Below, one piece after another: positions 1,875 to 59,122 of a stretch of DNA of 64,000 nucleotides (the first letter of the stretch is position 1; each line of letters opens with the position of its first letter). The notes below the pieces were generated by a model. That model was not told the origin of the DNA. It ran no database searches and worked only from the letters and a program-made list of their open reading frames with translations. Origin of the DNA: Micromonospora olivasterospora (GTDB lineage: Bacteria; Actinomycetota; Actinomycetes; Mycobacteriales; Micromonosporaceae); assembly GCF_007830265.1 (NCBI RefSeq), contig NZ_VLKE01000001.1, forward strand, positions 682,001 to 746,000, read 5' to 3'. Both the position numbers and the translations under genes were made by a program.

Positions 1875-2251
1875 GGGGGCGCCACCTGGCACCGGGTGCC
1901 GGGGGTATGGCGCTCCTCACGAAATGGGCTGCGGCATAATGTCCGACTTCCGGTGAACAGTGGATCACGCAGAGCCACGCCGGGCGTGGGCGCGCCGACC
2001 CGCCCCTCGGGCGCCGCACCCGTCGCCGGAGGCCCCCATGACGCCATTGTCGGCCCTGCGGCACGCCACACGCACGTCGGGTCGATGTTGTGAGAAAGCT
2101 CAAGGACGCGGGTCCTGCCAGGTCAGCCGGCTCCACCGACCGTTGACGTGGGCGTCATCACGGCGAAACGTCGGCGGGGCATCGTCGTCCTCGGGCAGAC
2201 TCGATGGCGCGCCTGCCTGAGCCGTCGGAACGATATTCGTGCGGGGTGACC
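1875..2251. other. Intergenic region between trpC and the 2252 gene
   Basis: About 375 bases lie between the divergently read trpC and the small gene at 2252. I see no supported gene here: open frames on either strand are arginine/proline-rich shadows. GATATT near 2231 could be part of a promoter for the plus-strand gene. No repeat or terminator hairpin with a T-run was found. Confidence 0.4.
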
Positions 2252-2509
2252 ATGAGCACTGCCGGGCCCAAGCCGACCATCGGGCTGACCACCATCTCCC
2301 GTACCGTCGCGTCGCTCGCCGTGGGGGTGGTGCACACCCTGGAGCGGGCCGTGGTCGGCGACGGCCGGGTCCGCACCGCCCGGGGCAACGCCTGGGAGGC
2401 GGTCTGCGCCGACCGGGCCCGCGCCGACCAGCGCGCCGAACTGGACCGCCTGGTGGCCGAGTTGGCCGCCGCCCGCGCCGCCGCGCGCGACCGCCAGCCC
2501 GTCGCCTGA
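2252..2509 (+). CDS. Small conserved-looking hypothetical protein
   Basis: An 85-residue protein starting MSTAGPKPTI, with the hydrophobic/amphipathic stretch TISRTVASLAVGVVHTLERAVV in its first half and an alanine/arginine-rich helix at the C-terminus (DRLVAELAAARAAA). I do not recognise a family. The composition of the N-terminal half is not the arginine/proline garble of shadow frames, which is why I treat it as a gene. GGGGTG sits just before the ATG; a GTG two codons upstream is an alternative start. It is read opposite to the trp genes on both sides, so it is probably a separate unit inserted in the trp cluster. Function unknown. Confidence 0.55.
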   Translation: MSTAGPKPTIGLTTISRTVASLAVGVVHTLERAVVGDGRVRTARGNAWEAVCADRARADQRAELDRLVAELAAARAAARDRQPVA

Positions 2510-2543
2510 GCCCGGGCCGGGCCGGGCCGGTAGATCCACTCCG

Positions 2544-2596
2544 TGTCGCCGACATGGTGGGGTCCAGCGGGCTCGAACACGCCCATGTCGCCGACA
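2544..2596. repeat. Two copies of a 42-bp spaced TGTCGCCGACA repeat
   Basis: TGTCGCCGACA occurs at 2544-2554 and 2586-2596, exactly 42 bp apart. The spacer (starting tggtggggtcc) resembles the spacer of the 42-bp tandem array at 6570-6680, so both loci carry one dispersed family. The motif is a 5-bp palindrome around a central base. It lies between the 2252 gene and the 3' end of the Trp-operon membrane protein gene. Confidence 0.7.
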
Positions 2597-2620
2597 TCGG
2601 CCTGATCACCAGCCGGACGG

Positions 2621-3211
2621 TCAGCCGGCGGTCGGGTCCTCGCCCCGGTCGAGGGCGTCCCACGCCTCCGTGGTGCGCCGCCCGGTCACCGGGCCGGCCG
2701 CCGCGCCGGCCGGCGCGTCGGTCGCCGGCCGCGCCCGCCGCTCGTACCGGGCGCCCATCGCCGGCCAGTCGCCGCCCCGCAGCGCGGTCAACGCGCCCCC
2801 GGCGGCGGCGAGCAGGCCGCCCACCAGGCAGAGGGCCGGCCAGCTCCGGCTCACCTCGCCGCCCAACGCCGCCACGAGGCCGTAGCCGCCGCCGGCTGCC
2901 ACGGCCACGCCGAGCCCCAGCAGCAGGGCGCCGAGCAGGCGACGTACCGCCGCCCGGGTGGCCAGCACCGCGCCGCCACCGGCCAACGCGACGACCGCCA
3001 GCGCCGGCAGCCACGGCAGCAGCCCGGCGCCGGTGCGCGCCTCGCGTACCGGCGGCAGCGGCGCCGGCCGGGCCGTCAGCTCGACCGCCCAGGTGCGGGT
3101 CGAGGCCCACACCGCCAGGCCAGCCCCGGCCAGGCTCAACAGCACGGCGTACGCCAGCTCGCGCCGCCCCCGCGCGGCCGGCGCCGAGACCTCGGCGGAA
3201 ACCGGTGTCAC
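2621..3211 (-). CDS. Trp-operon associated membrane protein
   Basis: A 196-residue membrane protein with four predicted transmembrane segments: ELAYAVLLSLAGAGLAVWA, WLPALAVVALAGGGAVLA, LLGALLLGLGVAVAAGGG and LCLVGGLLAAAGGALTAL. The first extracytoplasmic loop begins TRTWAVEL. This size, topology and position (between trpE and trpC) match the actinobacterial family annotated as Trp biosynthesis associated membrane protein; its biochemical role is unknown. The GTG at 3211 is chosen because it sits exactly 6 x 59 nt after the GTG that overlaps the trpE stop, and because the last repeat unit ends in a TGA overlapping this GTG. A GTG three codons upstream is possible. Translation is probably coupled to trpE through the repeat array. 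Confidence 0.85.
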   Translation of the reverse strand: MTPVSAEVSAPAARGRRELAYAVLLSLAGAGLAVWASTRTWAVELTARPAPLPPVREARTGAGLLPWLPALAVVALAGGGAVLATRAAVRRLLGALLLGLGVAVAAGGGYGLVAALGGEVSRSWPALCLVGGLLAAAGGALTALRGGDWPAMGARYERRARPATDAPAGAAAGPVTGRRTTEAWDALDRGEDPTAG

Positions 3212-3565
3212 CGGTGCCACTTTCCGTTCGCGACTGCGGGGCTCCGCTCCGCTGCACTCCTCGCGCTCACCGGTGCCACCTTCCGTTCACGACTGCGGGG
3301 CTCCGCTCCGCTGCACTCCTCGCGCTCACCGGAGTCTTCTTTCGTTCGCGACTGCGGGGCTCCGCTCCGCTGCACTCCTCGCGCTCACCGGTGCCACCTT
3401 CCGTTCGCGACTGCGGGGCTCCGCTCCGCTGCACTCCTCGCGCTCACCGGAGTCTTCTTTCGTTCGCGACTGCGGGGCTCCGCTCCGCTGCACTCCTCGC
3501 GCTCACCGGAGTCTTCTTTCGTTCGCGACTGCGGGGCTCCGCTCCGCTGCACTCCTCGCGCTCAC
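3212..3565 (-). repeat. 59-bp relay repeat array, 6 units (trpE to membrane protein)
   Basis: Six tandem units of exactly 59 bp run from the trpE stop to the start of the next gene. On the minus strand each begins GTGAGCGCGAGGAGTGCAGC. GTG codons fall at 3565, 3506, 3447, 3388, 3329 and 3270, and the next step lands on the start codon at 3211. Each unit encodes [15 protein letters not shown] plus 4-5 variable residues, then TGA overlapping the following GTG. The first GTG overlaps the trpE TGA. The variable tails carry GGAAGG- or GAAAGAAG-like Shine-Dalgarno stretches 8-10 nt before the next GTG. The unit can also fold weakly (GCGGAGC with GCCCCGC). Confidence 0.95.
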
Positions 3566-5115
3566 CGGGCGGGCCGGAGCGTCTCGGCGGCGGCGATCGC
3601 CGCCAGCACGGCGGCGGCCTTGTTCCGGGTCTCCTGGTCCTCGGCGGCCGGGTCGGAGTCGGCCACCACCCCCGCCCCGGCCTGCACGTACGCGCGCCCG
3701 TGGCGGATCAGCGCGGTGCGGATGGCGATCGCCATGTCCAGGTCCCCACCGAAGCCGAAGTACCCGACGGTGCCGCCGTAGAGGCCGCGCCGCACCGGCT
3801 CCAGCTCCTCGATGATCTCCATGGCCCGCACCTTCGGCGCCCCGGAGAGCGTCCCGGCCGGGAACGTCGCGGCGAGCGCGTCGAACGCCGTGCACTCCTG
3901 CCGCAGCTCGCCGACGACGGTGGAGACGATGTGCATGACGTGGCTGTACCGCTCGATGGTGGCGAACTCGGGCACCTCGACGGTGCCCGGCCGGCAGACC
4001 CGGCCCAGGTCGTTGCGGCCCAGGTCGACCAGCATCACGTGCTCGGAGCGTTCCTTCGGGTCGCCGAGCAGTTCGGCGGCGAGCCGGGCGTCGGCCTCGG
4101 GGGTGCCGCCGCGCGGCCGGGTGCCGGCGATCGGATGCAGCAGCGCCCGGCGCCGGCCGTCCGCCGCGGTGCTCACCTTCAGGTGCGCCTCGGGGGACGA
4201 GCCGACGATGTCGAAGCCGTCGAAGCGCAGCAGGTACATGTACGGGCTGGGGTTGGTGGTGCGCAGCACCCGGTAGACGTCCAGCGGGTCGGCGTGGGTC
4301 GCCCGCTCGAAGCGCTGGGCCAGCACGATCTGGAAGCACTCGCCGGCCCGGATCGCCTCCTTGGCCGCCTCGACGGCCTTCGGGTAGCCCCCCTCGGCGG
4401 TGCGGCTGACGACGTCGCCGGCCGCCGGCCGGGCCACAGTCGAGATCATCGGCGGGATGGGCCGGGACAGCGCCGTCGTCATCGCGTCCAGCCGCCCGAC
4501 CGCGTGGTGGTACGCGGCGGCGACCTGGGCGTCGCGGTCCGGCGCGTCCGACGGCGGCAGCACGGCGTTGGCGATCAGCAGCGCCGAGCCGTCGTAGTGG
4601 TCGAGGACCACCAGGTCGGTGGCGAGCATCATGCCCAGCTCGGGCACGCCGAGGTCGTCCTCGGTCAGCTCGGGCAGCCGCTCGAAGCGGCGCACCAGGT
4701 CGTACCCCAGGTAGCCGACCATGCCCCCGGTCAGCGGCGGCATGCCGCTGGCCGGGTTCCAGGCCGGGCCGGCGAGGGCCGCGACGGTCTCGCGCAGCAC
4801 CCGGACGGGGTCGCCGCCGGTCGGCAGCCCGGCCGGCGGCTGGCCCGTCCAGTACGCGACGCCGTCGGACGCGGTGAGGGTGGCGCTGCTGCGCACCCCG
4901 ACGAACGAGTACCGCGACCAGGCCAGGCCGGCCGAGCCGGCGCCCTGCTCGGCGGACTCCAGCAGGAAGGTGCCCGGGCCGCCGGCCAGCTTGCGGTAGA
5001 CCCCGACCGGGGTCTCCCCGTCGGCGAGCAGCCGGCGGGTGACCGGGACGACCCGCCAGCGGCCCGCCAGGTCGGTGAAGGTGGCCTGGTCGGGGCTCAC
5101 CACGCCGTCGGTCAT
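3562..5115 (-). CDS. trpE: Anthranilate synthase component I
   Basis: TrpE converts chorismate to anthranilate, the first committed step of tryptophan synthesis, with the glutaminase subunit TrpG (not in this window). The 517-residue protein has the N-terminal domain with the LLES motif ([10 protein letters not shown]) used for tryptophan feedback binding. The C-terminal chorismate-binding domain shows [35 protein letters not shown] and [14 protein letters not shown]. The ATG at 5115 overlaps the TGA of hisI (ATGA), so it is translationally coupled to a histidine gene. Its own TGA overlaps the first GTG of the 59-bp repeat array. Identification is secure. Confidence 0.97.
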
Positions 5116-6476
5116 GCCGGCTCCCCCGTGACGGTCACCGGCAGCTCGGTGAAGAAGCAGGTGCGGTGGCCGGTGTGGCAGGCCGCGCCGACCTGGTCGA
5201 CGCTGACCAGCAGCGCGTCGCCGTCGCAGTCCAGCGCGACGGAGCGGACGTACTGGTGGTGGCCGGACGTGGCGCCCTTCACCCAGTACTCTCCCCGGCT
5301 GCGCGACCAGTACGTGGCCCGGCCGGTGGTGAGGGTGCGGTGCAGCGCCTCGTCGTCCATCCAGGCGACCATCAGCACCTCTCCCGTGTCGTGCTGGCGG
5401 ACCACCGCCGCCACCAGGCCGTCGGGGGTGCGGCGCAGCCGGGCCGCGATGGCCGGGTCGAGCGCGGACGGGCGGGCCGCTCCGCCGGCCGCGGGCGGGG
5501 TCTGCTCGGCGTGGGCGCCGGTCACCGGCGCGTGAGGTACGGGCACAGTGACCCATTGTCCCGCACGCGGCGCGGGCACCGGCGACGAGTCCCACCGGGG
5601 CTGCCCCGGCTCCGGGCTTCGCGGGGGCCGGGGCGGCGGCACGGGGTTGGTCAGTTGGGCGAGGTAGCGGTCCAGCCGGCCGTCGAGCAGCGCGTCGGCC
5701 AGGTCCAGGCCGGCCACCGCGGCGATCTCGTCGGCGTACGGGCGTACCAGCGGGACGGTGCCCGTGACCAGGCGCGCCGCCGCGGCCCAGAGCTGCCCGG
5801 TGGAGCCCGGACGCGCGCCGAGGCAGAGCAGCATGTCGTCGCGGTACCCGGACGGGGCGACGGACAGGTCGAGGGCGGCGGCGAACGCGTACCGCCGGGA
5901 CACCACCCGGACCGACGGGTTGGCCAGCCGGAGCACGGACGGGCAGAGCCGGGCCAGGTCGGCGGCGGCCAGCCGGACGCCGAGGTGGTCGTCGCGGGCG
6001 CGGGCCCCGGCGACCTTACCGAGCGTGGCGATCAACTCCTCCAGCCGCGGCTCGTCGGCGGGCTGGCAGAGCACCGGCAGGTCGAGCCGGGGCCGCCAGC
6101 GCGGGTCGGCCCAGAGCAGGCGGGCCGGCGCGGTGACCGGCAGCCCGAAGGCCCAGTCGGCCGGCTCGCCGAGGTGGGCCAGCCAGGAGCGGACGTCCCG
6201 GACGGCCACCGAGACGTGGGTCAACCGGCCGCCGGATTCGGCCAGGTAGGCGCGGCGGGCGGCGTACGGGACGGGGTGGGGCCCGCCGTTTGCCGGTCCG
6301 GCCCCGGATGCGTCGTCGACCAGCACGTCGAGGTCGACGTCGCTGTGCTCGGTGGCCCCGCGTCGGGCGTGGCTGCCGCGCAGCAGGATGCCGACCACGG
6401 GGCGTTCGGCCGACTGCCGCAGCCGGGCGGCCCACTCGTCGAAGAACCCGTCGCCAGGTGACGCAGCGTGACCCAC
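5112..6476 (-). CDS. hisI: Phosphoribosyl-AMP cyclohydrolase fused to a nucleotidyltransferase-like N-terminal region
   Basis: One uninterrupted 454-codon frame carries two unrelated parts. Residues about 1-300 resemble a MNT/Pol-beta-like nucleotidyltransferase, with the loop [20 protein letters not shown] (GS plus DVDLD metal site). A proline-rich linker ([15 protein letters not shown]) follows. The last ~130 residues are HisI, which opens the ring of phosphoribosyl-AMP in histidine synthesis: [48 protein letters not shown] and the zinc-site cysteines in GAACHTG/TCF. HisI normally stands alone at 110-140 residues, so hisI may instead start inside, for example at a GTG near 5547 or 5523. The GTG at 6476 is my start for the long form; the frame is open back to a GTG at 6524. 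The TGA overlaps the trpE ATG. Confidence 0.85.
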
Positions 6477-6569
6477 CGCGCCATCGTGCCGTACGCCCGA
6501 TCCGGGCGCAATGCCGGTTGGCACACCGCCTGTCCGATCCGGAGCCTAGTGCCCGGTGTCGGTTGGCGC

Positions 6570-6680
6570 GATGTCGCCGGCGTGGCGGTGTCCGGGACGG
6601 CGAGTCCCCGCGATGTCGCCGACACGGCGGGGTCCGGGACGGCGAGTTCCCCCGATGTCGCCGACCCGGCGGTGTCGGGT
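6570..6680 (+). repeat. 42-bp tandem repeat, 3 copies
   Basis: Units starting gatgtcgccg recur at 6570, 6612 and 6654 (period 42), with spacers of the form gtgtccgggacggcgag. Since 42 is a multiple of 3 the array stays open in frame, but nothing suggests it is translated. It shares the TGTCGCCGAC core and spacer with the pair at 2544-2596. It lies between the start of the hisI fusion gene and the promoter region of the ABC transporter. Confidence 0.8.
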
Positions 6681-6788
6681 CCGCGAGCGGGGTCGTGGCA
6701 CCAGCACCCGGAGCCGACCGTTGCGGTCGCCCGGTCATCTCACCTAGCGTTGAGTTCATCGACTGTTGAATTTTGCGGGAGGTGGGCG

Positions 6789-7532
6789 ATGGACCCTGCG
6801 ATCGCGGTCCGCGACCTGGTCGTGGACCGGGGCCGGCGGCGGGTGCTGCACGGCATCAGCTGTGCGGTGCCGCGCGGCGCGGTGACCGGCCTACTCGGCC
6901 CCAGTGGCAGCGGCAAGACCACCCTGATGCGGGCGATCGTCGGGGTGCAGGTCGTCCGCTCCGGCTCGGTGACCGTGCTCGGTCGGCCGGCGGGCGCACC
7001 GGCGCTGCGCCGCCGGGTGGGCTACCTCACCCAGGCCCCCAGCGTGTACGCCGACCTCACGGTGCGGGAGAACGCCCGGTACTTCGCCGCGCTGCAGGGG
7101 CGGGACCGGGCCGACGCCGAGCGGGCCGTGGCCGACGTCGGGTTGGCCGACGCCGCCGGCCAACTCGTCGGCACCCTCTCCGGTGGGCAGCGCAGCCGGG
7201 CCTCCCTGGCCTGTGCCCTGGTCGCGCAGCCGGAGCTGGTCGTCCTCGACGAGCCGACCGTCGGGCAGGACCCGGTGCTACGGGCCGACCTCTGGGCCCG
7301 GTTCCACGCCCTCGCCGCCGCCGGCACGACCCTGCTGGTGTCCAGCCACGTCATGGACGAGGCGGCCCGCTGCGACCGGCTGCTGCTGATCCGCCAGGGT
7401 CGGCTCGTCGCCGACGACACCCCGGACGCGATCCGCGCCGCCGCCGGCGTCGACGACCTCGACGAGGCGTTCCTGCGCCTCATCCGCGCTGGCGAGGCGG
7501 CGGCCGGCCGCGACGGTCGGGGGGCGTCATGA
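6789..7532 (+). CDS. ABC transporter ATP-binding protein (exporter type)
   Basis: A 247-residue ABC ATPase that would drive the permease encoded next. Walker A is GPSGSGKTT (~38-46), the Q-loop region YLTQAPSVY follows, the signature motif is TLSGGQRSR, Walker B is LVVLDEPTVG, and the switch histidine is in LLVSSHVMDEA. This layout fits the DrrA/ABC-2 drug or lipid exporter class. The ATG at 6789 has GGGAGGTG about 6 nt upstream; a longer open frame upstream runs through the 42-bp repeats and is not credible as coding. The stop TGA overlaps the ATG of the permease. The adjacent TetR gene may control the operon. Substrate unknown. Confidence 0.93.
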   Translation: MDPAIAVRDLVVDRGRRRVLHGISCAVPRGAVTGLLGPSGSGKTTLMRAIVGVQVVRSGSVTVLGRPAGAPALRRRVGYLTQAPSVYADLTVRENARYFAALQGRDRADAERAVADVGLADAAGQLVGTLSGGQRSRASLACALVAQPELVVLDEPTVGQDPVLRADLWARFHALAAAGTTLLVSSHVMDEAARCDRLLLIRQGRLVADDTPDAIRAAAGVDDLDEAFLRLIRAGEAAAGRDGRGAS

Positions 7533-8284
7533 CCCCCCGCATCCTGGCCGCCACCACCGGCCGAATCCTGCGGCAGTTGCGGCACGACCGGCGCACCGTC
7601 GCCCTGCTGGTGCTGGTGCCGGCGCTGCTGCTGACGCTCGTCAACTACATGTACGCCGACCAGCCCGCCCCGCCCGGCCAGCCGAGCATGTTCGACCGGG
7701 TGGCGCTGGTGATGCTCGGCGTCTTCCCGTTCGTGATCATGTTCCTGGTGACCAGCATCGCCATGCTGCGCGAGCGCACCTCCGGCACCCTGGAACGCCT
7801 GCTCACCACCCCGCTCGGCCGGCTCGACCTGCTCTTCGGCTACGGCATCGCGTTCGGGCTGGCCGCCGCCGGGCAGGCGTGCGTCGCCGCGGCCGTGGCG
7901 TACTGGGCGTTCGGTCTCGAGACCGCCGGCAGCAGCGCCCTGGTGATCGTGATCGCGGTGGTCAACGCGGTGCTCGGGGTGGCCCTCGGGCTGCTGTGCA
8001 GCGCCTTCGCGCGCACCGAGTTCCAGGCCGTACAGTTCATGCCGGTCGTGGTGCTGCCCCAGCTGCTGCTGTGCGGCTTGTTCGTCGCCAGGGACCAGAT
8101 GGCCGGCTGGTTGCAGGCGGTCAGCGACGCCCTGCCGCTGTCGTACGCGGTGGAGGCGTTGCAGGAGGTCGGCGCCCACGCCGAGCCCACCGCCACGATG
8201 TGGCGCGACCTCGCGGTGGTGGCCGGCTCGGTGGTGCTGGCGCTGGTGCTCGCGGCGGCCACCCTGCGCCGGCGCAGCGGCTGA
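7529..8284 (+). CDS. ABC-2 type transporter permease
   Basis: A 251-residue membrane protein of the ABC-2 permease family, partner of the ATPase just upstream (ATGA overlap). It has six predicted membrane spans, including VALLVLVPALLLTLVNYMYA, MLGVFPFVIMFLVTSIAML, VIVIAVVNAVLGVALGLLC and LAVVAGSVVLALVLAAATL. The conserved cytosolic motif RERTSGTLERLLTTPLGR follows the second span, as in DrrB-like exporters. Likely role: export of a drug, lipid or secondary metabolite; the substrate cannot be read from the sequence. Confidence 0.92.
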   Translation: MTPRILAATTGRILRQLRHDRRTVALLVLVPALLLTLVNYMYADQPAPPGQPSMFDRVALVMLGVFPFVIMFLVTSIAMLRERTSGTLERLLTTPLGRLDLLFGYGIAFGLAAAGQACVAAAVAYWAFGLETAGSSALVIVIAVVNAVLGVALGLLCSAFARTEFQAVQFMPVVVLPQLLLCGLFVARDQMAGWLQAVSDALPLSYAVEALQEVGAHAEPTATMWRDLAVVAGSVVLALVLAAATLRRRSG

Positions 8285-8339
8285 GGCTCCCGGCGGCCCG
8301 CTCCCCCGCGACGCCGCCGGACGGGCCGCGACGGGCAGG

Positions 8340-8505
8340 GAACGGCCGCGACGGACGGGAACACGCAGGAAGGGGGCCCCGACGGGCGGGGGCGGGCCGC
8401 GCCGGACGGGAACAGGCAGGAATGGGCCCCGACGGGCGGGGACGGGCCGCGCCGGACGGGAACAGGCAGGAAGGGGCCGCGACGGGCGGGGGCCGCGACG
8501 GGGGC
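8340..8505 (+). repeat. Tandem repeat of about 50 bp, 3 copies
   Basis: Blocks of the form gacgggaacaggcaggaa followed by ggggcc and gacgggcgggg recur at 8354, 8405 and 8455 (periods 51 and 50). The array fills most of the 241-bp gap between the permease stop and the TetR gene. Each copy contains an AGGAAGGGG-like purine run. I see no start-stop coupling here, so I regard it as unrelated to the 59-bp family. Confidence 0.65.
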
Positions 8506-9229: not shown

Positions 9230-11023
9230 TCAGCGGGTCTGCTCCAGCCAGGACGCGTACAGCAGGCCGTAGACCGAGTCCGGGTCGCGGACCAGCTCGT
9301 CGTGCGGCCCGCGCTGCACCACGCGGCCCCGGTCCACGACGATCACCTCGTCGGCCGCCTGGGCGGTGGAGAGCCGGTGCGCGATGGCGAGCGTCGTGCG
9401 GCCCCGGGTCACCGCGTCCAGGGTGCGTTGCAGGCGTACCTCGGTGGCCGGGTCGACCGCGCTCGTCGCCTCGTCCAGCACCAGCAGGTCCGGGTCTGCC
9501 ACGTACGCCCGGGCCAGGGCGACCAACTGCCGCTCGCCCACGCTCAGCGCCTCGCCGCGCTCCCCCACCGGCGTGTCCAGCCCCGACGGGAGCCCGTCCA
9601 GCCAGTCGGCCAGCCCCAGCTCGGTGAAGGCGGCGGTGAGCTGCGCGTCGGTCAACTCCGGCCGGGCGAAGCGGACATTCTCCCCGACGGTGGCGTCGAA
9701 CAGGAAGCCGTCCTGCGGGACCATCACCACCCGGGAGCGCAGCGAGGCGAACCGGACCTGCCGCAGCGGCACCCCGGAGAGCAGCACCTCGCCGGTGGCC
9801 GGGTCCATCAGCCGGGTGAGCAGCTTGGCGAACGTCGTCTTGCCGCTGCCGGTCTCCCCGACCACCGCGACCCGGCTCTTCGCCGTGATCTCCAGGGTCA
9901 CGTCGTGCAGCACCGGCGGGCCGCCCGGGTAGGCGAAGCTCACCCCGGCGAACCGGACGTCCAGCGGCCCCGACGGCAGCTCCCGCCCCCGTTCCCCGGG
10001 GTCGGCCACATCCGGGGCGATGTCCAGCACGTCGAGCACCCGCCGCCAGCCGGCGATCGCGTTCTGCGCCTCGTTGAGCACCTCGGTGGCGATCTGCACG
10101 GGCTGGATGAACAGCGTAACCAGGAACAGGAACGCGGTGAGCTGGCCGATGGACAGGTCGCCGCCCGCGCCGAGGACGATGCCGAGGGCCACCACGCCGG
10201 CCAGCGCCAGCCCGGCGGCCAGCTCGCCGACCGAGCTGCCCATGATGCTGATCCGGATCGCCCGCTGCTGGGCCAGCCGCTGCCCGTCGATCGCGACGTC
10301 GAGCCGGCGAGCCGTCCGCCCGGCGATCCCGTACGCCCGGATCACCGGCGCGCCCACCACGCTCTCGGCGATGGTGCCGAGCAGGGTGCCCGTCCGCTGC
10401 CGGACGACCGCGTACGCCCCCGCGAGGCGACGTTGGAGCAGCCGGATCACCAGCACCGCCGGCGCGAACGCGGCGAGCACGACCAGGGTCAACTGCCACG
10501 AGTACGCCAACATCACGGCCGTGGTCACCAGCAGCTGGCCGAGGTTGACGATCAGGATCACGCCGCCCCACTGGAGGAACTGGGTGATCTGGTCGACGTC
10601 GCTGGTCACCCGCGACACCAGCGAGCCGCGCCGCTCGGACTGCTGGTGCAGCATCGACAGGTCGTGCACGTGCCGGAACGCCCGGGTGCGCACGTTGGCC
10701 AGCGCCGTCTCGCTGACCGTGAACAGCCGGCGCATCATCAGGTACCCGCAGACGGTGGTCACCGCCAGGACGGCGGCGGTCACGGCCACGACGGACCACA
10801 CCACGCCCAGGTCGAGCCCGCCGACGATGCCGTCGTCGATGCCCTTCTGCACCGCCACCGGAACGGCGACCCGCCCGACCATGTAGACCAGCGCCAGGCC
10901 GAGCGTGCCGGCCAGGCCGGTGCGCAGCTCCGGGGAGAGAGCCAGCCCGCGGCGCAGCGTCCGCCAGGTCGACTCGCCACCCTCCGCCGGCCGCTCGTCC
11001 TGCTCCACGGTCGCGCTGCTCAC
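9230..11023 (-). CDS. ABC transporter, fused membrane and ATPase domains (second of a pair)
   Basis: A 597-residue half-transporter: six-helix exporter membrane domain (e.g. LGLALVYMVGRVAVPVAVQ, VVWSVVAVTAAVLAVTTVCG, ITQFLQWGGVILIVNLGQLL) followed by a nucleotide-binding domain. Walker A is GETGSGKTTF, the signature region is slightly degenerate (ALSVGERQLVALARAY), Walker B is LLVLDEATSAVD, and the switch histidine is in IAHRLS. The partner is the neighbouring gene at 11261-13138, so they probably form a heterodimer. The GTG at 11023 (MSSATVEQDE) is chosen because the last repeat unit upstream ends in a TGA overlapping it; GAGAGG lies upstream. A GTG 40 codons upstream is in the same frame through the repeats and could give a longer form. 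Confidence 0.93.
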   Translation of the reverse strand: MSSATVEQDERPAEGGESTWRTLRRGLALSPELRTGLAGTLGLALVYMVGRVAVPVAVQKGIDDGIVGGLDLGVVWSVVAVTAAVLAVTTVCGYLMMRRLFTVSETALANVRTRAFRHVHDLSMLHQQSERRGSLVSRVTSDVDQITQFLQWGGVILIVNLGQLLVTTAVMLAYSWQLTLVVLAAFAPAVLVIRLLQRRLAGAYAVVRQRTGTLLGTIAESVVGAPVIRAYGIAGRTARRLDVAIDGQRLAQQRAIRISIMGSSVGELAAGLALAGVVALGIVLGAGGDLSIGQLTAFLFLVTLFIQPVQIATEVLNEAQNAIAGWRRVLDVLDIAPDVADPGERGRELPSGPLDVRFAGVSFAYPGGPPVLHDVTLEITAKSRVAVVGETGSGKTTFAKLLTRLMDPATGEVLLSGVPLRQVRFASLRSRVVMVPQDGFLFDATVGENVRFARPELTDAQLTAAFTELGLADWLDGLPSGLDTPVGERGEALSVGERQLVALARAYVADPDLLVLDEATSAVDPATEVRLQRTLDAVTRGRTTLAIAHRLSTAQAADEVIVVDRGRVVQRGPHDELVRDPDSVYGLLYASWLEQTR

Positions 11024-11264
11024 CGGTCCCACCTCTCGTCCGCGACTGCGGGGCTCCGCTCCGCTGCACTCCTCGCGCTCACCGGGGGCCCGCCTTCCGT
11101 TCGCGACTGCGGGGCTCCGCTCCGCTGCACTCCTCGCGCTCACCGGGGGCCCGCCTTCCGTTCGCGACTGCGGGGCTCCGCTCCGCTGCACTCCTCGCGC
11201 TCACCGGGGCCCGCCTTCCGTTCGCGACTGCGGGGCTCCGCTCCGCTGCACTCCTCGCGCTCAC
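11024..11264 (-). repeat. Relay repeat array, 4 units (60, 61, 61, 59 bp)
   Basis: Four units of the same family as at 3212-3565 lie between the two ABC genes. GTG codons occur at 11264 (overlapping the TGA of the upstream gene), 11204, 11143 and 11082, and the next is the start codon at 11023. Unit lengths differ, but the first three sum to 182, which is 2 modulo 3. A frame opened at 11264 therefore reads through three units and stops at the TGA overlapping the GTG at 11082; the last unit then stops at the TGA overlapping 11023. Confidence 0.93.
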
Positions 11265-23590: not shown

Positions 23591-23627
23591 CGAGCTGCCC
23601 CTCGTCCGCCGCCAGCCGCCCGGTCAC

Positions 23628-23921
23628 AGGGCCGGCCTTTCGCTCGCGACTGCGGGGCTCCGCTCCGCTGCACTCCTCGCGCTCACAGAGCTGGCCTTTG
23701 CTCGCGACTGCGGGGCTCCGCTCCGCTGCACTCCTCGCGCTCACAGAGCTGGCCTTTCGCTCGCGACTGCGGGGCTCCGCTCCGCTGCACTCCTCGCGCT
23801 CACAGAGCTGGCCTTTCGCTCGCGACTGCGGGGCTCCGCTCCGCTGCACTCCTCGCGCTCACAGAGCTGGCCTTTCGCTCGCGACTGCGGGGCTCCGCTC
23901 CGCTGCACTCCTCGCGCTCAC
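23628..23921 (-). repeat. Relay repeat array, 5 units (59, 59, 59, 58, 59 bp)
   Basis: Five units between hisH and orf107. GTG codons lie at 23921 (overlapping the hisH TGA), 23862, 23803, 23744, 23686, and a last one at 23627. The first three units end in a TGA overlapping the next GTG. The fourth unit has lost one base (AGCAAAGG instead of AGCGAAAGG) and runs on in another frame; the last GTG is 37 nt before the orf107 start, which breaks the strict coupling rule here. Unit tails are of the form GAAAGGCCAGCTCT. Confidence 0.93.
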
Positions 23922-24774: not shown

Positions 24775-25382
24775 TCACAGGGCCCCCTTGGTGCTGGGGA
24801 TCGCGCCCGCCGCGCGCGGGTCGACCGCGGTGGCCTCCCGCAGCGCCCGGGAGACCGCCTTGAACTGCGCCTCGACGACGTGGTGGGCGTCCGGGTGGCC
24901 GCCGGGGCGGGCCGCCCGCAGCACGTCCACGTGCAGCGTGATCCGGGCCGCCTGGCCGAAGGACTCCCAGATGTGCCGGGTCATGCTGGTCGGGTAGACC
25001 GGCCCGATGTACGGGGCCAGCGGCGGCTCGTCGTGCACCACGTACGGCCGGCCGGACAGGTCGACGGCGGCGCGGACCAGTACCTCGTCCATGGGGACGG
25101 TCGCCGAGCCGTACCGCCGGATGCCGGCCTTGTCCCCCAGCGCCTGGTCGAACGCGGCGCCCAGCGCGAGCACGGTGTCCTCCATGGTGTGGTGCGCGTC
25201 GATCTCCAGGTCACCCACCGTCCGTACCGTCAGGTCGAAGCCGCCGTGCCGGGCGATCTGGTGCAGCATGTGGTCGTAGAAGCCGACCCCGGTGCTGATC
25301 TCGGCCTGGCCGGTGCCGTCGAGGTCGATCTCGACGAGGACCTTGGTCTCCTTGGTGACCCGTTCCACCCGGGCGGTGCGAC

Positions 25383-25386
<4 letters not shown>
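24775..25386 (-). CDS. hisB: Imidazoleglycerol-phosphate dehydratase
   Basis: HisB removes water from imidazole glycerol phosphate to give imidazole acetol phosphate. The 203-residue protein is monofunctional (no HAD phosphatase domain). It starts MSRTARVERVTKETKVLVEI and shows the two manganese-binding histidine motifs, DAHHTMEDTVLALG and, near the C-terminus, DAHHVVEAQFKA. The ATG at 25386 overlaps the TGA of a single diverged relay unit that begins on the hisC stop codon, so the start is well supported. An ATG 21 codons upstream lies inside the relay unit and is unlikely. Confidence 0.97.
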
Positions 25387-26518
<1,132 letters not shown>

Positions 26519-57522: not shown

Positions 57523-58205
57523 TCCGGGTGGTCCGACGGCTGCTCCGGCAGCCGTCGGCGCGCCGGTTCGCCCTGCTGCTGCTCCTGCTCGCGGCGTTCA
57601 CCGCGCTGCTGGCGGTGGTGCCCCGACCCGACGTGGCGCACCTGCCGCGGCTGGCCGACCCCCTCGGCCCGTACGCGCCGGTCGCGGCCGTGGTCGGCGG
57701 CGCGTTGCTGCTGGTCGCCCTGGTGCCCCGCACCTTCGTCACGCTCGCCGCCGGGGCGGTCTTCGGCCCGGTCGCGGGCGCCGCGTACGCCCTCGGCGCC
57801 GCGCTGCTGGCCGCCGCGATCGGCTTCGCCGTCGGCCGGGCGCTGGGCCGCGAGTTCGTCGCCGAGCGGGTACGCGGCCGGCTCGCCCGGCTGGACGGCT
57901 GGCTCGCCCGGCAGAGCGTGCTCGGGGTGGTCACCGTCCGGCTGCTGCCGATCGCCGGCTTCGGCCTGGTCAGCTACGGCTACGGCACCACGGGCGCGCG
58001 GGTGCTGCCGTTCCTGGCCGGCAGCCTGCTCGCCTCCGCCCCGACCGCGTTCGGCTACGCCGCGATCGGCGCGGCGGCCGCCTCGCCCGGCGCCGTGAAC
58101 TGGTACGCCGCCGCGCCCGCCGCCCTCGGGCTGGTCGCCAGCGTCGTGCTGGCGCACCGGTGGTGGCGGGCGGAACGCCGCCGCCGCGCGGAGCCGGCCC
58201 CGTGA
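57519..58205 (+). CDS. TVP38/TMEM64 family membrane protein
   Basis: A 228-residue membrane protein of the DedA/TVP38 superfamily with about five spans (RFALLLLLLAAFTALLAVV, APVAAVVGGALLLVALVP, AAYALGAALLAAAIGFAVG and others). The family core is LVPRTFVTLAAGAVFGPVAGAAYA and VRLLPIAGFGLVSYGYGTTG. Such proteins are linked to lipid scrambling or membrane homeostasis. The GTG at 57519 overlaps the gatD TGA (GTGA). Its own TGA overlaps the first GTG of the relay array. Confidence 0.9.
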   Translation: MIRVVRRLLRQPSARRFALLLLLLAAFTALLAVVPRPDVAHLPRLADPLGPYAPVAAVVGGALLLVALVPRTFVTLAAGAVFGPVAGAAYALGAALLAAAIGFAVGRALGREFVAERVRGRLARLDGWLARQSVLGVVTVRLLPIAGFGLVSYGYGTTGARVLPFLAGSLLASAPTAFGYAAIGAAAASPGAVNWYAAAPAALGLVASVVLAHRWWRAERRRRAEPAP

Positions 58206-58378
58206 GCGCGAGGAGCGCAGCGCAGCGAAGCCCCACAGTCGCGAACGAAAGAAAGCACCCGTGAGCGCGAGGAGCGCAGCGCAGCGAAGCCCCACAGTCG
58301 CGAACGAAAGAAAGCACCCGTGAGCGCGAGGAGCGCAGCGCAGCGAAGCCCCACAGTCGCGAACGAAAGAAAGCACCC
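58202..58378 (+). repeat. Relay repeat array, 3 units of 59 bp (plus strand)
   Basis: Three identical 59-bp units on the plus strand, with GTG at 58202 (overlapping the TGA of the TVP38 gene), 58261 and 58320; the next step, 58379, is the GTG of the kinase gene. Each encodes MSARSAAQRSPTVANERKHP and stops at a TGA overlapping the next GTG. Here the core is diverged (CAGCGAAGCCCCACAG) compared with the other arrays, but length and overlaps are exact. Confidence 0.95.
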
Positions 58379-59122
58379 GTGAGCGCTGAGGAGCTGCTGC
58401 CGGGTGGTTGGGTCGCGGAGGTCGCCCGGGTCGGGGACACGGTGCGGCGTACCCCGCCGGCCAACGCCGGGTACGTCGCCGAGCTGCTGCGGCACCTGGA
58501 GCGGGTGGGCTGCCGGGTGGCGCCGGCGTACCTGGGGGTCGACGAGCAGGGCCGGCAGGTGCTGGGCTACCTCGACGGGCGGGTGCCCTGGCGGGACCGG
58601 GAGGATCCGGCGTACTTCTCCGACGGCGCGCTCGCGGGGGTGGCCCGGCTGGTCCGGGCGCTGCACGACGCCTGCGCCGGCACCCCGCTGGCCGGCGACG
58701 CGGAGACGGTCTGCCACCGCGACCTCTCCCCCAAGAACACCGTCTACCGGGACGCTGGGCAGGGACCGCTGCCGGTGGCCTTCCTGGACTGGGACCTGGC
58801 CGGCCCGGGCCGGCGGGTCGAGGACGTGGCCTTCGTCTGCTGGCACTGGGCCGAGCTGGGCCCGGGCGCGGACCCGCACGAGCTGGCCCGCCGCTGCCGG
58901 CTGGTCCGGGACGCGTACGGGCCGCTGCCGGGCGCCGACGAGCTGCTCGACGTGATGCTGACCCAGGTCGACGGCACGTGGCGCGGCATCGCCGAGGGCG
59001 CCGAGCGGGACGTCCCGGGCATGCGCCGACTGCGCGCGGCCGGCGCGGTGGAGGCGATCCGGGGCTGGCACGCCTGGCTCCGGGCCCACCACGGAGCCCT
59101 GACGACCCTCCTGACCCCCTAA
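58379..59122 (+). CDS. APH-type phosphotransferase
   Basis: A 247-residue aminoglycoside-phosphotransferase-fold kinase. It has the catalytic loop VCHRDLSPKNTVYR (Brenner-like HxDxxxxN) and the metal site VAFLDWDLAGPGRRVED. The N-terminal lobe is short. It could phosphorylate a small metabolite or an antibiotic; the substrate is unknown. The GTG at 58379 is fixed by the relay array, and the gene's own start (GTGAGCGCTGAGGAG) resembles the start of the repeat unit, which hints at how the units arose. Convergent with leuS. Confidence 0.88.
   Translation: MSAEELLPGGWVAEVARVGDTVRRTPPANAGYVAELLRHLERVGCRVAPAYLGVDEQGRQVLGYLDGRVPWRDREDPAYFSDGALAGVARLVRALHDACAGTPLAGDAETVCHRDLSPKNTVYRDAGQGPLPVAFLDWDLAGPGRRVEDVAFVCWHWAELGPGADPHELARRCRLVRDAYGPLPGADELLDVMLTQVDGTWRGIAEGAERDVPGMRRLRAAGAVEAIRGWHAWLRAHHGALTTLLTP

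Follow-up and report, generated by a model that had tools for sequence, protein, structure and literature searches.

A tandem array behind trpE in Micromonospora olivasterospora, probably a stack of short mobile repeats that works like the mycobacterial MIRUs

Known systems and the array between trpE and Trp_oprn_chp

REP/BIME elements, which occur with RAYT (Y1) transposases, are short, dispersed and non-autonomous. Synthetic biology uses bicistronic design leaders, in which ribosomes are brought to an overlapping downstream start by a short ORF that contains a Shine-Dalgarno sequence. A third system is formed by the mycobacterial interspersed repetitive units (MIRUs), for which the primary paper is that of Supply et al. 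1997 (Mol Microbiol 26:991). According to a review (PMC12548453), MIRUs are apparently mobile, insert at start codons and contain an internal ORF that is coupled at -4 nt. They are described as tandem repeats of 46-101 bp at 41 loci (PMC3914561), and the copies between senX3 and regX3 are reported (PMC4213456) to drive senX3-independent expression of regX3.

The window, i.e., the whole stretch of 64,000 nucleotides of Micromonospora olivasterospora that was analysed, contains an array of short repeats behind trpE. On the minus strand, trpE (3562-5115), which encodes anthranilate synthase component I (Pfam PF00425 and PF04715), is followed by Trp_oprn_chp (2621-3211), encoding a tryptophan-associated membrane protein (Pfam PF09534). 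Between both genes and on the same strand lies an array of six type-A units of 59 nt (3211-3565; Tandem Repeats Finder score of 603), with GTGs at 3565, 3506, 3447, 3388, 3329 and 3270. As an earlier note on this DNA had claimed, all six units open with a GTG and end in a TGA that overlaps the GTG of the next one. The first GTGA (3565-3562, minus strand) joins the TGA of trpE to the GTG of unit 1, and the last one (3211-3208, minus strand) joins the TGA of the sixth unit to the GTG of the downstream gene at 3211, also in agreement with that reading. The resulting micro-ORF consists of a GTG, 19 codons and a TGA (63 nt), the TGA being shared with the next GTG. The six copies had been called exact, which is correct for their 59-nt spacing but not for their sequence: a first stretch of 46 nt, constant apart from a single C-to-T change in unit 5, is followed by 13 variable nt. 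A Shine-Dalgarno-like purine tract, GGAAAG, is present in the tail of unit 6 (3220-3225, minus strand), 8 nt before the downstream GTG, and units 1 to 5 have a purine tract at the same place. An alternative in-frame GTG for Trp_oprn_chp is found at 3220, nine bases upstream of 3211.

Further copies are located elsewhere in the window. Four type-A units with spacings of 60, 61 and 61 nt lie between two ABC exporter half genes (11023-11264, minus strand), and their summed spacings preserve the stop-start frame. Five type-A units (spacings of 59, 59, 59 and 58 nt) follow a gene of the his cluster that encodes a glutamine amidotransferase and is hisH by its context (23627-23921, minus strand); a simulated relay of the kind described below fails at this array, the chain being broken. 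Three type-A units, both spacings being 59 nt, are flanked by a VTT-domain gene on one side and, on the other, by a gene matching the APH (phosphotransferase) domain (58202-58379, plus strand). A single decayed type-C unit is visible at the start of the IGPD (hisB) gene (25381-25440, minus strand). Decayed type-C units of similar sequence, at the same 54-nt distance from the next start, were also observed at loci L311, L324, L326, L330, L176, L195 and L118, and this recurring unit looks like an old shared insertion.

Some other repeats of the window were recorded as well. A 42-nt tandem repeat with a ATGTCGCCGACA-like motif occurs at 6567-6687, and a similar motif is present near 2550 (2545-2600). 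A 50-nt tandem repeat of 3.4 copies at 8323-8491, directly after a gene called at 7529-8284, has no evident relation to the units of the 59-nt type.

We consider it likely that a short mobile repeat, apparently non-autonomous, has been stacked in tandem to form the array, that this repeat is transparent to translation and works like the mycobacterial MIRUs, and that most copies are kept through the little harm that they do, with no need of the host for a relay. Both kinds of unit are short, both are found in tandem as well as dispersed at dozens of places, and both vary in copy number. They also share the stop-start overlap at -4 nt, an architecture that is known in Micromonospora from the sequence alone. 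They differ in their host, Micromonospora instead of mycobacteria, in their length (56-59 nt against the 46-101 bp given for MIRUs) and in the three subtypes with exchanged inner segments of the Micromonospora family. The works-like relation is close as an analogy between described features; membership is not claimed, as the host differs. The kind of element is already known, the review (PMC12548453) describing MIRUs in these terms.

Like REP/BIME elements, the Micromonospora units are short, dispersed and apparently non-autonomous. Unlike them, they have a fixed orientation in operons, are compatible with coding and are not linked to the number of Y1 transposases. With bicistronic design they share a short ORF, an own Shine-Dalgarno-like tract and an overlapping downstream start, whereas the Micromonospora units are natural, apparently mobile and stackable in tandem. 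No description of this repeat family was found in the literature available as open-licence full text.

Subtypes, distribution and conserved sequence

The family to which the units belong is dispersed and comprises three subtypes, A, B and C. These have their outer sequence in common and differ in the inner segment, which measures 12, 14 and 9 nt, respectively. Their usual lengths are 59 nt (A), 59 or 60 nt (B) and 56 nt (C), and the tail of subtype B is shorter. Arrays of mixed subtype are rare (3/334). Inner segments of still another type, the 10-nt GAGCGAAGCGAG type, were seen at L380 (near 3.056 Mb in the genome studied here) and at G056:C83:85697, which suggests subtypes beyond A, B and C.

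Subtype A was searched with a 40-nt pattern, allowing at most three mismatches. This pattern has 34 matches in the 7.07-Mb genome of M. olivasterospora, and its reversed control has none; together with the three further arrays and the decayed copy in the window, and the Tandem Repeats Finder score, these counts bear out that the repeat is more than chance. The pattern is present in 58 of the 61 genomes of the genus. An exact pattern for subtypes B and C, with a gap of 2-10, was found in all 61, with 37 matches in M. olivasterospora (38 with a slightly wider pattern). The 61 genomes contain a total of 531 A and 1194 B/C matches. Taken together, these amount to a median of 27 per genome, ranging from 2 to 71, and the genome studied here represents the maximum. 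It has 75 units at 30 places, with short tandem repeats at many loci.

Tandem copies with variable tails could also result from ordinary slippage of a sequence that happens to sit in an operon. Such a chance minisatellite is refuted by the dispersal, as the same outer sequence recurs at 30 places of the M. olivasterospora genome and all 61 genus genomes searched contain it, in a nearly constant relation to genes; its probability is next to nil.

For the scans of the family and the order, the A-type pattern was widened at two columns. In the family, 33 of 150 genomes and 10 of 44 genera match; each matching genome from other genera has 1 to 9 copies. Across the order, matches were found in 33 of 249 genomes and 2 of 68 genera, and none of them lies outside the own family. 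A sequence profile covering all subtypes matches 27 of 200 genomes of the order, namely 23 of the own genus, one of another genus of the family and three from outside the family, the latter being weak, single matches (E-values of 5e-4 to 8e-4). The counts of the profile per genome seem to be limited by the 26 candidates that were scored, and they were not taken as copy numbers. Among the matches listed, which comprise at least 120 loci, all belong to Micromonospora, Verrucosispora or unclassified Micromonosporaceae, and no mycobacterial occurrence is found among them.

Between subtypes A and B, the reading frame of the conserved 3' half of the unit changes while the DNA remains unchanged, so it is the nucleotides that are conserved and not the peptide. 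Two of the most variable columns of the core, 14 and 22, fall on codon positions 2 and 1. Both observations argue against units that encode a functional, conserved micropeptide, as does the fusion of class-0 units (see below) to each other or to the next protein. Although most units have an open frame of about 20 codons and the core is near-identical, we regard such a peptide as very improbable.

Two pairs of columns covary among 144 unique units. Columns 14-30 are G-C in 107 units, A-T in 36 and G-T in one; columns 1-45 are G-C in 123, A-T in 12 and of another combination in nine. This covariation might be explained by a structural RNA or promoter element for the downstream gene, such as an attenuator, a processing site or an internal promoter. 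However, the folding energy is not unusual (z-scores of -0.3 to 1.0 against mononucleotide shuffles), and forcing the covarying pairs results in a worse fold. Rfam 15 gave no match at the gathering score in positions 2000-6000 of the window, and no sigma-70-like promoter was detected in the array, which is a weak test in this phylum. The terminator scan returned one terminator-like site, located on the other strand, against 0.5 expected. RNA structure would, in addition, leave the frame bias described below unexplained, and an element of this kind is quite unlikely.

In the tail of the units, a purine tract precedes the next start by about 9-14 nt. A Shine-Dalgarno match of at least five bases is present in 55% of 228 tails, in 42% of 211 native NTGA junctions and in 24% of shuffled tails.

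Reading frame and relation to the neighbouring genes

Genes were called by a simple codon-bias script, and three sets of arrays were compiled: 111 arrays from the window and 100 regions, 177 flank-unique arrays obtained by adding 80 of the at least 120 listed loci, and 334 arrays from all loci. In the last set, which holds 524 units, arrays were dropped when they were less than 250 nt (start) or less than 400 nt (end) away from the locus end, or when either flank was repeated. The 334 arrays are unique by exact flanks only, and orthologous insertions across species are therefore counted more than once, which overstates the small p-values calculated from these arrays.

The element is usually located at an NTGA stop-start overlap and has the orientation of both adjoining genes. 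Of the 334 flank-unique arrays, 328 are followed by a co-directional gene and six by a gene that faces the other way, so the units are not equally common at genes of other orientation, which the earlier note had named as a refutation of its reading. The upstream gene is co-directional in 321 of these arrays and opposed in 12. Nearby pairs of neighbours free of arrays are co-directional in 363 cases, convergent in 47 and divergent in 43, the 3' neighbour being co-directional in 363 of 457; an NTGA overlap exists in 147 of those 363 co-directional pairs. In 230 of the 334 arrays, the upstream gene ends on the first unit's TGA; in the other 104 its stop is a different one, which we count against the preferred reading. 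At one locus, L097, copies in opposite orientation occur within about 2 kb, and the copy on the minus strand is a rare unit without a co-directional next gene.

Relative to the last unit, the downstream gene can be in one of three frame classes: stop-start (class 2), fused (class 0) and broken (class 1). These contain 272, 38 and 18 arrays (n = 328), and the next start is mostly at a distance of 2 modulo 3 from the last unit. Control GTGAG sites 20-200 nt before gene starts (n = 179) gave 49, 50 and 80 for classes 2, 0 and 1. The predominance of class 2 may stem from the fixed length of a unit placed at an NTGA site, or from the insertion itself, and not from selection. A cleaner sign of selection is provided by the internal spacings, of which 50 fall in class 0 and six in class 1. 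A further 75 fall in class 2, and this distribution of 131 spacings (each length scored once in a given array) is strongly uneven modulo 3; an even spread was a second refutation named by the earlier note. Its unit length of 2 modulo 3 applies to the trp array, but spacings of 57, 58, 60 and 61 nt also occur elsewhere. Subtype C alone is less clean, with 11, 9 and 3 in classes 2, 0 and 1 (n = 23).

A simulated relay arrives at the downstream gene in 98 of 111 arrays and fails in 13, in five of these by running off the locus end. The own genome is represented by 31 rows with 77 units, among which the plus-strand row L036 repeats part of the L383 row. The next gene is co-directional in 29 of these rows, and the relay arrives at it in 23. 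A relay from offset frames is also successful (99 and 89 of 111), and this control did not discriminate because the unit is also open in the fused frame, only class 1 breaking the relay. As the unit is open in two frames, the success of the relay is largely built in, and the evidence lies solely in the depletion of class 1. The deletion of one base from the last tail does discriminate, the relay then arriving in 16 of 111 arrays; a two-base deletion (94/111) or a one-base insertion (93/111) at this place does not break it. The depletion of the broken frame represents the best evidence for translation passing through the units.

This passage would take the form of a chained termination-reinitiation. 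A ribosome that ends the upstream gene would restart on the overlapping GTG, read about 20 codons of the unit and stop at the next NTGA, beside the Shine-Dalgarno sequence borne by the unit. The ribosome would then restart, on either the following unit or the actual downstream gene. Where the unit length is 0 modulo 3 (57, 60 or 54 nt), a case that the earlier note had not foreseen, translation would instead continue across the units in a single fused frame. Every unit brings a new NTGA at its end, at which further copies could insert or duplicate head to tail. Most copies would persist probably through their low harm to the operon, and not through a need of the host.

Arrays of 57-nt units, which form one continuous frame, were observed at several loci. 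L033 (near 2.886 Mb in the own genome) ends at the downstream start, and the arrays at L040, L108 and L212 are fused to the downstream gene, to which they would add a repetitive N-terminal extension.

Sites without units and mobility

Relatives have the same gene junctions without units. For trp, the gene is present in 60 of 61 genomes, and 30 junctions were examined, including the one in the own genome. At twelve of them, 1, 2 or 6 units are placed precisely at the stop codon of trpE, and the remaining 18 have no recognisable unit at the threshold used. In 14 of these 18 unit-free sites, the downstream gene is open in frame from an NTG overlapping the trpE stop (4-nt overlap). The four without direct overlap are L133, L135, L141 and L145, of which L135 and L141 look like decayed arrays, with 12 and 10 mismatches to the 40-nt core. 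On a tree of the trpE ends, seven gains or losses are required, five of them forced by well-supported branches. In one sister pair, L143 has two units and L148 has none.

A second comparison was made for folB behind a Pterin_bind gene (Pfam PF02152 and PF00809), at 30 loci from the 58 genomes with the gene. A unit is present in only one of these loci; the other 29 are unit-free, and 22 of them show a 4-nt stop-start overlap as scored. The insertion has AGGGGGACCGGTGA on both sides, while the unit-free loci L411 and L417 read gggggaggggaccgATGACC once. Its flank is a 14-nt direct repeat, which holds a purine-rich Shine-Dalgarno sequence, a spacer and the start codon. The hisH junction, also used as an empty-site test, is too diverged for exact insertions; its reading exposed subtypes B and C.

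Sites with and without units (12 against 18 of the 30 trp junctions, 1 against 29 of the 30 folB loci) provide comparative evidence for mobility by insertion at start codons, a further likeness to MIRUs. The direct repeat with a Shine-Dalgarno sequence and start codon at some insertions may be a difference from them. Since the relatives have unit-free, directly overlapping gene pairs, the array itself made the gap that it bridges.

This bears directly on the translational relay that the earlier note had proposed. A stop-start relay would be the natural reading of the architecture, but a host device to cross a 350-nt gap does not agree with 18 of 30 trp junctions being unit-free, 14 of them directly overlapping. 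Repeats selected to retain ribosomes on the mRNA, or to tune downstream expression by their copy number, would account for the strict stop-start architecture, the Shine-Dalgarno-like tract in the unit tails and the presence of 0, 1, 2 or 6 units at a single trp junction. However, most unit-free relatives are already coupled without a gap (14/18 for trp, 22/29 for folB), units have been repeatedly gained or lost at the trp junction, and the folB insertion is found in one of the 30 genomes examined. We therefore regard selection for a host relay as unlikely and retain the reading as a mobile, translation-transparent repeat.

Direct repeats at the insertions were scored as a run, the number of consecutive bases shared by the sequences that precede the first and the last NTGA. 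For 151 distinct upstream flanks, this run has a mean of 1.70, compared to 0.56 after permutation (permutation maximum of 0.82), and individual runs reach 18 nt, the scoring maximum. By subtype, in a slightly different set (n = 146, 53 and 15), the means are 1.35 for A, 2.55 for B and 1.27 for C, against permuted values of 0.55, 0.58 and 0.37; in subtype C, the largest permutation mean (1.33) is above the observed 1.27. These repeats fit a target-site duplication that includes the Shine-Dalgarno sequence and the start codon in recent insertions, or a microhomology used at insertion. In 74 of the 151 arrays the run is 0. Because about half of the arrays are without a direct repeat, target duplication would either not be general or decay fast.

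A more far-reaching proposal is that translation initiation sites are the very target of the insertion reaction, which would copy their Shine-Dalgarno sequence and start codon and leave target duplications of variable length, as in target-primed retro-insertion. Each jump would then rebuild both the stop-start junction and the landing site, and the family would be a genus-wide, ribosome-adapted parasite, possibly moving via an RNA intermediate. We offer this as a speculation, with a rather small chance of being correct.

A Y1 transposase was considered as the mover and rejected, as its counts do not follow the copy number of the units (Spearman 0.13, p 0.31). PF01797 (Y1) is present in 18 of 61 genomes, versus 61 of 61 for the B/C pattern. 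No transposase was identified as the mover.

The Micromonospora family suggests that the MIRU way of life, in which a repeat occupies a stop-start overlap and remains invisible to translation, extends beyond the mycobacteria. With its sites with and without units, its three subtypes and its clear frame rule, it makes two questions testable in culturable soil bacteria, i.e., the movement of such repeats and the limits of chained termination-reinitiation. The repeats are located in biosynthetic and housekeeping operons (trp, his, fol, transporters), which also makes them relevant to annotation: the calling of start codons can be distorted by the micro-ORFs, and downstream proteins can acquire peptide extensions from them.
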